Part shown: positions 1 through 47,650 of the stretch, piece after piece
Layout of the letters: the number at the start of each line of letters is the position of its first letter
How positions within the stretch are numbered: the stretch's first letter is position 1
Assembly: GCA_029975525.1 (NCBI GenBank)
Contig: JARKOX010000045.1
Coordinates: 47,490 to 111,489, forward strand
Origin: Prolixibacteraceae bacterium
GTDB taxonomy: Bacteria > Bacteroidota > Bacteroidia > Bacteroidales > Prolixibacteraceae
Length of the DNA: 64,000 nt
Direction: 5' to 3'
Made by a program: the position numbers and the translations under genes
The notes under the pieces: generated by a model
Database searches by the model: none
What the model was told of the DNA's origin: nothing
What the model saw: the letters and a program-made list of their open reading frames with translations, nothing else

Positions 1-2913
1 ACCGGCAATAAATACGCAGTCGAACTCCAGCCCTTTTGACGCATGCAGCGTCATCAACGAAACGGCCTCCTGCCGGCGGTCAAAACCATCCGACGGCGAC
101 CCCGATTTTATCCAGGCCAGGAACTCTTCTGCCGACTGGAAATTCCGGCTGATTTCGAGCAGGTGCAAAAACAGGTTGTGGTCAAAGGCTGTTTTGGGGA
201 AAAAGGTGTTGCGAATAAATTGGATAGACTGTTCAGGAGGAACCGTCAACATCCGTTCGACGAGGTCGGCCGGAAGCGTCGGCGGAATCCCGGCATTAGC
301 GCTTTCCGAAACAACAGGCAGTCCGGGGAGCAGCGCCCTCGAAAACAGATCCAGTAATTCGCGGAAGGGAGGCTCTCTGAAAAATGGCTCCTCTCCCACC
401 TGCTGAAACGGGATGTTGTGATCCCGAAACGCCTTTCCAATGGCATCAAACTGCTGTCGGGTGCGGCAAAGCACAGCAATCTCCGATAATCCCGCGATAT
501 GGTCGTTGCCGTGCCCCGAAGCCACCTCGCTGTCGATTGAAAAGAAACTGATCCCGCCCAGCATCCGGACCACTTCCCGGGCAATAAATTCGGCTTCACT
601 TTTATCGGTTGCCTGTCCGGCAATGTTGATCTTAACCCCGGAAGATATCCCGGTAAGCATCCCGGCTTCACCGACAACCTGCGCGGAGGCATCCAGAATG
701 GTTTGCGGACAGCGGTACGAAGTGGAGAGCCGGAACGTGCGGGCTGCCGGGTAATCGGCGGTAAACCGGCGGATAAACTCCACGCTGGCCCCCCGGAATC
801 CGTAAATCGCCTGCTGCGGATCGCCCACCACGCAAAGACGGGAGTGGCGATGCGGCGCCAGCAAACGAATCAGTTCATACTGTTTAGGGTTAGTATCCTG
901 GTATTCATCCACAAAAATAAACGGGAAGGAATGCCGGTACGCCTCCACTATTTCCGGATTTTCGCGGAACAGTTTCACTGGTAACGCCAGCAGGTCGTCG
1001 AGATCGAAAACATTCAGTCCGGCCAGCCGGGCATCAAATTTTTCGGCCCACTCCGGAAGGTCATCGGTGACAATCCCCTGTTTCCAATCCGACAACAGCC
1101 TGCAAGCCCGGGCGGCTTCCCGCTCCGTGAGGCCGACGACCTGCTGCACAAGCAGCCTCTTCTCCGGCTCGTCGATAATGCCAAAATGCGGCTTCCGGTT
1201 GAAGCGGGTATGATGTTCTTTCAGGATGCGATATCCAAAGGCGTGAAATGTCGAAACCGTCAGCTGGCGGGCCTGGATCTCCGGCGGGAGCATCTTTTCG
1301 ATCCGCTCCCGCATTTCGAGGGCGGCCTTCCCGGTAAATGTCAGCGCCAGGATCTGTCCGGGCAACGCTTTCCCGCTGGTGAGAAGCCTGACGATTTTGG
1401 CCGTTAAGGTTTTGGTTTTTCCGGTTCCGGGACCAGCCAGCAGCAAAGCCGGCCCTTCGTCGTACTCCACTGCGGCCTGCTGTTCAGCATTCAGCTCCGT
1501 TGTGCTGGCGACAGGTCCCGCAGCATTGTAGGCTGCTTCCGGCTCAGCAGCGGCGGCTTCCTTGCGCAGCTGGTCAATGCCGTGGAGATCGAATGCGATG
1601 AGCGGATGTTCTTTCGGCGGAGCTATCCTCTTTCCTGCTCCAAACAGGGAGGGAGGCGCCGAAAACTGTTGTACTTCCCCCGGCGCAAACACCGTAATCC
1701 GCCCATATTCACCATCAAAACCTTCCCGGACATACACTTCGCGAAGCCGCATCCGGCGGATGGCTTCGCCCAGCGCCGGCGAAACAGCCGAAACCGAACT
1801 TTCCGGAACGTTTAGCAGAATATCCAGCTCTGTCCCCAATTTGCCGATCAGCTGAAAATATTCAGTTTCCACCTTTCGCGAAGATTCGCCGGTCTGAAGA
1901 ATTTCGGCCAGCAACTCTTTCAGGGGGATAATGGAACGGAACGGCTTTTTCAGTTTTCGCTCCTGCGGGTCTTCCCGATCCGAAAGGCGGATCACCCGGT
2001 TCATCACCCCGACGGTAACGGGTTTTTCGCAAACAGGGCAAACCTCCCGGTTTTTCAACGTTTCTGCCGGATTCCAGCAGAGGTTGCATTTGCGGTGTCC
2101 GTCGTAATAATATTTTCCTTCCTGCGGAAAAAGGTCGATGGTTCCTTCAAAGCCGTCATGTCCGGGATGGCGCAAAGCGCCGACAATTCCGTGGTAAGAA
2201 AGTTCGCCACTGAACAGGTTTGCATTTCGCCCCAGGCGGTCGGGCGAGTGGGCGTCGGAATTGGAAACCAGCGCCATGTTGTCGAGAAACGAGCAGAGCC
2301 AGTTCATCGGCGCATCGGTAGACAGGCCCGTTTCGATGGCGACGATGTGCGGGAGCAGGTCGCCAAAACACTCTTCGGGAGAATCGAATCCCGACCGGGA
2401 CCCGAGCATGGAAAACCAGGGGGTCCAGATGTGGGCCGGGATCAGCAGGTTTTCGGGCGAAGCTTGGAGCACAATCTCCAGGAGGTCGCGGGAGTCGAGC
2501 CCTAAAATCGGCCGGCCGTCGGAGGTGAGGTTCCCGCCCAGCTGGCGCAGCCGGCTGTTGATGCGTTCGGCTTCTTCAAAACCGGGGGCCAGCACCACGT
2601 GGTGAACTTTCCGCACTTTGCCATCGCGTTTGTAAATATTGCTGATCTCAGCCGTAAGCAGGAAGCGGGTTTCGTTACCGGGCCGAAACGGCGCAATCGC
2701 CGCCTCTTTTTTCAACCGGAACAGCCCGTTCCCTTCGGGCACCAATTTCTCTTTCAACTCAGCCAGCCAGCCCGGATGGGTAAAATCGCCCGTTCCGACC
2801 ACCTTAATTCCTTTGATGGCAGCCCAGTAGTCCAGATATTCCGGAACCAACTGCGGACTGGTCGCCCTCGAAAAGCGGGAATGAATATGCAAATCAGCAA
2901 TAAAAGTTGCCAT
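1..2913 (-). CDS. EndoQ-type PHP-domain nuclease fused to UvrD/REP-family helicase (partial, C-terminus off left edge)
   Basis: Frame read by hand: no tta/cta/tca triplet in this frame from 1 to 2913. ATG at 2913 gives MATFIADLHIHSRFSRATSPQLVPEYLDYWAAIKGIKVVGTGDFTHPGWL..., then HIWTPWFSMLGSRSGFDSPEECFG, SNSDAHSP and CNLCWN..CPVCEKP (PHP/EndoQ-like with Zn ribbon), then LLLAGPGTGKTKTL, FVDEYQDTNPKQYELI and VVGDPQQAIYGFRGA (UvrD motifs). Absent from the ORF track because it runs off the edge. Confidence 0.9.
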   Translation of the reverse strand, partial: MATFIADLHIHSRFSRATSPQLVPEYLDYWAAIKGIKVVGTGDFTHPGWLAELKEKLVPEGNGLFRLKKEAAIAPFRPGNETRFLLTAEISNIYKRDGKVRKVHHVVLAPGFEEAERINSRLRQLGGNLTSDGRPILGLDSRDLLEIVLQASPENLLIPAHIWTPWFSMLGSRSGFDSPEECFGDLLPHIVAIETGLSTDAPMNWLCSFLDNMALVSNSDAHSPDRLGRNANLFSGELSYHGIVGALRHPGHDGFEGTIDLFPQEGKYYYDGHRKCNLCWNPAETLKNREVCPVCEKPVTVGVMNRVIRLSDREDPQERKLKKPFRSIIPLKELLAEILQTGESSRKVETEYFQLIGKLGTELDILLNVPESSVSAVSPALGEAIRRMRLREVYVREGFDGEYGRITVFAPGEVQQFSAPPSLFGAGKRIAPPKEHPLIAFDLHGIDQLRKEAAAAEPEAAYNAAGPVASTTELNAEQQAAVEYDEGPALLLAGPGTGKTKTLTAKIVRLLTSGKALPGQILALTFTGKAALEMRERIEKMLPPEIQARQLTVSTFHAFGYRILKEHHTRFNRKPHFGIIDEPEKRLLVQQVVGLTEREAARACRLLSDWKQGIVTDDLPEWAEKFDARLAGLNVFDLDDLLALPVKLFRENPEIVEAYRHSFPFIFVDEYQDTNPKQYELIRLLAPHRHSRLCVVGDPQQAIYGFRGASVEFIRRFTADYPAARTFRLSTSYRCPQTILDASAQVVGEAGMLTGISSGVKINIAGQATDKSEAEFIAREVVRMLGGISFFSIDSEVASGHGNDHIAGLSEIAVLCRTRQQFDAIGKAFRDHNIPFQQVGEEPFFREPPFRELLDLFSRALLPGLPVVSESANAGIPPTLPADLVERMLTVPPEQSIQFIRNTFFPKTAFDHNLFLHLLEISRNFQSAEEFLAWIKSGSPSDGFDRRQEAVSLMTLHASKGLEFDCVFIAG

Positions 2914-14066: not shown

Positions 14067-14251
14067 GGTTTACTCTTTTGATTCAGCCACGAAGTTAACG
14101 GAAAGTATCTTTTTTGAAATTTTTGGAAATAAAGAAATAGCCCGAAAACAGCGGTTTTTCGGGTATTCTACCTCATTTCGGAAAAAATCAGGATAAAAAA
14201 ATCCAAAAAACTCCTTTTTTCTTTCGTGAAAGAAAATTACTTTTGCCCCGC

Positions 14252-14309
14252 TACGTGGAAGAATTTGTGATTGATTGCAACCACCTGAAAAAATGCTAAA
14301 ACAATCGGG
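14252..14309 (+). promoter_or_regulatory. SAM-II-like (SAM_alpha) riboswitch aptamer upstream of metK
   Basis: CGUGGAAGAAUUUGUGAUUGAUUGCAACCACCUGAAAAAAUGCUAAAACAAUCGGG: P1 GUGG (14255-14258)/CCAC (14281-14284), UUGCAA and GCUAAA conserved blocks, pseudoknot GAUUG (14269-14273)/CAAUC (14302-14306); directly upstream of a SAM synthetase. Confidence 0.8.
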
Positions 14310-46948: not shown

Positions 46949-47650
46949 TCAAATGCTGGCAACTTTCCGCAAGCCTGAAATATTGAGGAATTTAATTTTG
47001 CGGCCCTGCAGCTCAATAAGCTTGTCCTGTTTAAACTCCGACAAGAGCCGGATAACCGACTCGGTGGCAGTTCCCACCATGTTGGCCAGCTCTTCGCGGG
47101 TCAACGAAATCTGAAGGGTATTCTGGTTGTCGAGCTCAAAGTTCTCCTTCAGCAGGAGCAACACCTCGGCCAGCCTTTCGCGGACGGTTTTCTGGGCGAT
47201 ATCGGTGATGTAGTCGTTGGCTTCGCGCAGCTCACGACAAACAATCTGAAGCATGTGGTGCGAAAACTGCCAGTTGTTCTGAATGAGATACAGCAACGTC
47301 TGGTACGGGATGTGGCACAACACCGCATCGTCGATGATTTTGGCGGTGGTACAGGCCAGCTCCTGGCTCAGCAGCGAACGGTAGGCAATGATATCGCCAC
47401 GTTTGGCAAACCGGATAATCTGCTCTTTTCCGTCGATCCCCGTTTTAAAAATTTTCACAATACCTTTGGTCACACAATAAAAACCGGTTAACCGGCTCCC
47501 TTCGCGGTAAACAATCGTTCCCTTTTTGTAGAGCGAGCACGATTTTTCATAATTCAACCGGTTGAATTCATCTTCCGTAAGTTTTTTAAAAAGCTGAAAT
47601 CCACTCAGATTTGACTCTTCTTCAGCGGGTCGTTTAGTCGTAGTTCTCAT
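46949..47650 (-). CDS. Crp/Fnr family transcriptional regulator
   Basis: CSLYKKGTIVYREGSRLTGFYCVTKGIVKIFKTGIDGKEQIIRFAKRGDIIAYRSLL; LTREELANMVGTATESVIRLLSEFKQDKLIELQGRKIKFLN. Confidence 0.93.
   Translation of the reverse strand: MRTTTKRPAEEESNLSGFQLFKKLTEDEFNRLNYEKSCSLYKKGTIVYREGSRLTGFYCVTKGIVKIFKTGIDGKEQIIRFAKRGDIIAYRSLLSQELACTTAKIIDDAVLCHIPYQTLLYLIQNNWQFSHHMLQIVCRELREANDYITDIAQKTVRERLAEVLLLLKENFELDNQNTLQISLTREELANMVGTATESVIRLLSEFKQDKLIELQGRKIKFLNISGLRKVASI

Follow-up and report, generated by a model that had tools for sequence, protein, structure and literature searches.

The window, i.e., the whole stretch of 64,000 nucleotides analysed here, corresponds to C126:47490-111489 of its source genome, a member of the Prolixibacteraceae. 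At its left edge lies a minus-strand gene, with coaX and a response regulator gene as its direct neighbours, whose product joins an EndoQ-like nuclease to a UvrD-type helicase. The preliminary description had reported a single unbroken minus-strand frame leaving the window on the left; this is indeed what we see, with an ATG at position 2913 and 971 amino acids encoded within the window. Followed into the flanking part of genome contig C126, the frame remained intact, giving a complete product of 1057 amino acids with 0 internal stops; the last 260 or so bases, with the stop codon, lie to the left of the window, and the gene ends at contig position 47229. The elements of the gene, all on the minus strand, are the following:

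1-2913, minus strand: EndoQ-UvrD fusion, residues 1-971 of 1057 (the rest, including the stop codon, at C126:47229-47489)
1687-2913, minus strand: EndoQ-like domain, residues 1-409, comprising PHP nuclease, zinc ribbon and C-terminal DNA-binding region
2029-2097, minus strand: zinc ribbon with ligands His273, Cys276, Cys292 and Cys295, placed by alignment to PfuEndoQ and by conservation
1495-1686, minus strand: variable linker, residues 410-473, with poor conservation and low pLDDT over part of the matching region
1-1494 and then outside the window, minus strand: UvrD/PcrA-type SF1A helicase, from residue 474 to about residue 1040
1414-1434, minus strand: Walker A motif GPGTGKT, residues 494-500 (81/81 save one T497S)
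895-909, minus strand: motif II DEYQD, residues 669-673, placed by conservation in the alignment
C126:47232-47246, outside the window, minus strand: putative clamp motif QLKLF, residues 1053-1057

The same window also holds an ordinary SAM-II riboswitch at 14249-14309 (Rfam RF01726, 50 bits), ahead of an apparent metK.

A stop codon or frameshift between the two domains had been named beforehand as the observation that would speak against a true fusion; neither is found, be it in the window gene or among some 80 homologues. The homologue set consists of the best 80 of 239 relatives obtained in a scan with one genome per species, and nearly all of these 80 are full-length fusions, a few running off contig ends. 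The same architecture recurs at full length in about 80 genomes independent of one another, which rules out both a chimeric assembly and a frame open by chance; the EndoQ-UvrD fusion is an established protein family. The best 80 are distributed over approximately 12 phyla, the groups bearing the fusion being Bacteroidota, Spirochaetota, Omnitrophota, Elusimicrobiota, Aminicenantes, Cloacimonadota, KSB1, Fidelibacterota, Calditrichota, Chloroflexota, Thermodesulfobacteriota and bins labelled Deltaproteobacteria. The fusion is thus old and widespread. Within the phylum of the window, a match to TIGR00375 was found in 14 of 297 genomes, mostly in frames of about 1000 amino acids; two of these frames are broken by indels, and in one genome (G228) the match is weak and the frame short. 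The broken genes (L097 and L098, in G283 and G287) are fusion genes split by single-base indels, attributable to sequencing error or gene decay; a programmed frameshift was rejected, since the indels occur at different positions.

The N-terminal half had been described as an EndoQ-like PHP domain, and the searches bear this out: residues 6-408 match PfuEndoQ along its length in phmmer with an E-value of 2e-45, and the TIGR00375 profile gives a significant match (E 1.1e-44). The domain scores 153.4 bits against a curated TIGR00375 cut-off of 326.6, and it is therefore filed as a distinct, fused EndoQ-like subfamily and not as an EndoQ equivalog. Residue conservation was assessed on 81 sequences (the window protein and the 80 homologues) aligned with PfuEndoQ. 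All eight catalytic positions considered (PfuEndoQ D6, H8, H10, E76, H84, H139, D193, and H195) are present in the window protein, and they are kept across the 81 fusions with a single D193N exception in one of them; mutants of E76, H84 and H139 are reported to be inactive in PfuEndoQ (PMC8307549). In addition, H139, G169 and S171 (PfuEndoQ numbering), which form the EndoQ pocket keeping out T and A (PMC8307549), are identical in 81/81 fusions. The zinc ribbon has to be redrawn: it had been read as two CXXC motifs, but Cys279 occurs in only 45 of the 81 sequences, and the ligands are His273, Cys276, Cys292 and Cys295, which are invariant and align with Pfu C249/C252/C268/C271, His thus standing for the first of the four cysteines. 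Beside the ribbon, the window protein carries Tyr269 (window 2107-2109) at a position occupied by His in 80/81 homologues and in PfuEndoQ (H245). Finally, the fold of homologue L006, which is 57% identical, superimposes in an AlphaFold2 model on PfuEndoQ (5zb8) with a TMt of 0.89 and an rmsd of 3.0-3.7.

The assignment of the C-terminal half to the SF1 UvrD helicases, made previously from its Walker A GPGTGKT and DEYQDTN motifs, holds as well: PF00580 matches with an E-value of 8.5e-70, PF00580 and PF13361 both exceed their gathering scores, and the motifs are conserved. Over the 81 aligned sequences, conservation extends to GPGTGKT, DEYQD, YR, and the TLHASKGLE and YVGMTR regions, and the closest relatives in the PDB are PcrA and UvrD. 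The part of the protein lying in the window does not reach the NCBIfam equivalog cut-offs for pcrA (286 vs 911 bits), rep (264 vs 951) or uvrD (215 vs 1144). In the AlphaFold2 model, made for the Tangfeifania homologue L006 (pLDDT 83.8, pTM 0.62), the helicase half has a TMt of about 0.74 to UvrD, PcrA and Rep; this model is not a reliable guide to how the halves are positioned relative to each other.

The window protein ends in QLKLF. A Q[LM]xL[FL] motif lies at most 6 residues from the stop in 68 of the 77 complete homologues, against 0.1 matches expected after shuffling of the last 30 residues, and the looser Qxx[LF][FL] is found in 76 of the 77. In the alignment of 81 sequences, Q1053, L1056 and F1057 are nearly fixed, while the preceding sequence is variable. 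Among UvrD paralogues of the same family and order, 14 were scored, and none of them carries such a motif at its C-terminus. Clients of the bacterial beta clamp share the consensus QL[S/D]LF or QxxLF (PMC12309361), and the C-terminal motif of the fusions matches this consensus at an accessible terminus. Judged from the motif, the fusion is likely tethered to the replication beta clamp. There is precedent among its relatives, as the C-terminal PIP box of Thermococcus kodakarensis EndoQ binds PCNA and is needed for the stimulation of cleavage by PCNA, and a beta-clamp-like motif has been noted in bacterial EndoQ homologues (PMC4858679).

The fusion could also merely serve co-expression, its halves acting on separate substrates and their link having no mechanistic meaning. 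This is in keeping with the variable sequence of the linker and a model that leaves domain placement unfixed, as well as with the existence of a standalone EndoQ close to the fusion family. The latter is a protein of about 470 amino acids, encoded at L108:1498-2907 in a genome of the same order as the window genome (G349), which ends in QLRLF and falls, with weak support, inside the fusion clade of the tree. It may have arisen by loss of the helicase with retention of the clamp motif, and as a standalone relative with a clamp motif of its own it indicates that the helicase has been dispensable at least once. Nevertheless, a link kept across about 12 phyla, together with strongly constrained active sites and terminal clamp motif, makes mere co-expression highly improbable.

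A comparison of the homologue loci revealed lineage-specific gene neighbourhoods and none common across phyla. In related genera that carry the fusion, the gene adjoins coaX. In four genomes of the window's own genus (G322, G323, G324, and G327), which have a canonical Ung, the fusion is absent between coaX and a POT transporter gene, and in three of them the response regulator is also kept at that locus. Since the fusion stands beside coaX in related genera and is cleanly missing in these genus-mates, it was probably ancestral at the coaX locus and later lost. At five loci of Thermodesulfobacteriota (L049, L053, L076, L080, and L084) the fusion and dnaN-gyrB, which lies upstream of it, are divergently oriented and 0.5-1.7 kb apart; in L053 a weak RdgC-like gene lies in between.

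Repeated loss and patchy occurrence are also what one might expect of a defence or DNA-quality enzyme that acts on foreign uracil- or hypoxanthine-containing DNA and is insensitive to Ugi, the loss of Ung then being due to phage pressure. Indeed, Bacillus subtilis EndoQ is not inhibited by Ugi and a possible antiviral role of bacterial EndoQ has been put forward (PMC8307549), and the helicase half shows similarity to GajB and to further UvrDs of defence systems. On the other hand, the likeness to GajB is generic to UvrD helicases, and a test for a Gabija system showed coaX and the response regulator next to the gene and no GajA-like partner beside the helicase. The neighbours are of a housekeeping kind (coaX, response regulator and dxs; elsewhere dnaN-gyrB), and the clamp motif points toward the host replisome. 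Moreover, the phage records contain 0 matches to the EndoQ domain and the plasmid records none over 80% of the fusion, and for this reason carriage by phages or plasmids was rejected. Overall, we regard a defence function as improbable.

The relation to uracil-DNA glycosylases was analysed in 140 Prolixibacteraceae genomes, 9 of which carry the fusion and 131 do not. Canonical family-1 Ung (TIGR00628 above its cut-off) is found in 0/9 carriers vs 116/131 non-carriers (Fisher 3e-8). As relatives are not independent, the safer figure is given by the exact test within genera, in which fusion and canonical Ung exclude each other with p = 0.006, or 0.0013 when the genomes counted have a completeness of 90% or more; the pattern had first emerged from the data and was tested over the full family afterwards, and the informative genera are only three. 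Most carriers in other phyla have UDGs of other families, and three carriers outside the Prolixibacteraceae (L011, L029, and L070) possess canonical Ung and the fusion together.

Loss of every UDG was rejected for the window genome, as a divergent family-1 Ung-like gene, with GQDPYP in place of GQDPYH, was found there (L153:8554-9384, minus strand, contig C36). This weak match emerged upon repetition of the search, so that a single loose profile search is not a safe basis for declaring a UDG absent. The divergent Ung-like protein (about 100 bits), which may be active, occurs in 9/9 carriers and in about 13 of the 131 non-carriers. Given its presence in all nine carriers, uracil may be excised there independently of the fusion, and the divergent protein may supply either the function of the fusion or its AP-site substrate. 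The strongest rival explanation is built on this: the divergent protein would remove uracil, the EndoQ half would serve as an AP endonuclease, the helicase would clear the nicked strand, and deaminated bases would be recognised directly only to a minor extent. The co-occurrence in carriers fits such a scheme, and AP sites are also cut by EndoQ homologues (PMC6202378). However, an enzyme restricted to AP sites has no need of the residues that exclude T and A from the pocket, and these are invariant. Furthermore, the divergent protein occurs on its own in some non-carriers of the family and together with canonical Ung, but without the fusion, in six genomes; in the genome with the standalone EndoQ, which is 98% complete, no UDG-superfamily or Ung match was found. 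We consider such a role downstream of a glycosylase unlikely.

The explanation that we find best, and hold to be probable, is a self-contained, clamp-tethered alternative excision repair of deaminated or abasic DNA, in which a nick is followed by stripping of the strand by the helicase. The preliminary description had proposed a nick-and-unwind machine for deaminated DNA; this remains an inference from sequence, which gains indirect support from the conserved clamp motif and the exclusion of canonical Ung. The architecture, the intact active sites, the clamp motif, the wide conservation and the exclusion of Ung are seen directly in the sequences, whereas the substrates, the position of the nick, the polarity of the helicase, clamp binding and the order of the steps are extrapolated from relatives. 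The fusion would be held at the beta sliding clamp by its C-terminal QLKLF, and its EndoQ domain would flip out the lesion, be it a deaminated base (U or hypoxanthine) or an AP site, and nick the strand immediately 5′ of it, leaving a 3′-OH. UvrD-type helicases travel 3′ to 5′. The fused helicase would accordingly be expected to load onto the intact strand at the nick and to move away from the 3′-OH, peeling off the lesion-bearing 5′ end; displacement would thus proceed the way a polymerase travels when it extends the 3′-OH. A clamp-bound polymerase would fill in and the flap would be removed.

The EndoQ nick leaves a 3′-OH and a 5′-phosphate (PMC4357722). EndoV occurs in 2/140 genomes of the family and none was found in the window genome. 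Double incision by EndoQ and EndoV was rejected for the Prolixibacteraceae because EndoV is nearly absent, and displacement from a single nick is therefore the natural reading. A bolder proposal, namely a clamp-tethered, single-polypeptide nick-and-unwind pathway that spans about 12 phyla, replaces canonical UDG, supplies the helicase step of EndoQ repair and has been swapped repeatedly with Ung at the genus level, is put forward tentatively, at slightly under an even chance.

No paper describing an EndoQ-UvrD fusion was found in the collection of literature searched; in databases it may well be listed simply as a helicase. Each component is known, but there appears to be no earlier description of the combined architecture, of its terminal clamp motif or of the exclusion of Ung. 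The steps after the EndoQ nick are not settled, and the helicase invoked in the 2015 model has had no candidate; a widely conserved covalent fusion names one. In addition, a bacterial beta-clamp motif in the place of an archaeal PCNA box suggests that clamp recruitment is core to EndoQ repair in both domains of life, and the exclusion of Ung is a genetically testable claim on the control of C-to-T mutation in bacteria lacking the standard glycosylase.

Three known systems invite comparison. In the model of Shiraishi (2015), a helicase for which no protein was named removes the strand after cuts by EndoQ and EndoV (PMC4357722). The fusion would resemble it in cutting on the 5′ side of the lesion and then having a helicase remove the damaged strand. 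The model relies on a second cut by EndoV; in the fusion the helicase is covalently attached. With the SF1A helicases UvrD, PcrA and Rep, the fusion has every core motif and the overall helicase fold in common. It differs from them in its identity of about 30%, in the N-terminal nuclease, in scores far under the equivalog cut-offs, and in the stretch from motif II to motif V (286 amino acids in the window protein vs about 340 in PcrA), the length of which varies within the fusion family; its terminal beta-clamp motif was also not seen in UvrD paralogues of the same bacterial family. The third system is Endonuclease Q (PfuEndoQ, TkoEndoQ, and the Bacillus pumilus and Methanosarcina acetivorans EndoQ; TIGR00375/COG1379), which shares with the fusion the PHP nuclease, the zinc ribbon and the C-terminal DNA-binding region, as well as the catalytic and base-pocket residues, the fold and a sliding-clamp motif at the protein C-terminus. 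Compared to EndoQ, the fusion is about 29% identical, has His in place of one zinc Cys, carries an attached helicase of nearly 600 amino acids, and bears a clamp motif of the bacterial type at the helicase end, in parallel with the PCNA box of archaeal EndoQ.
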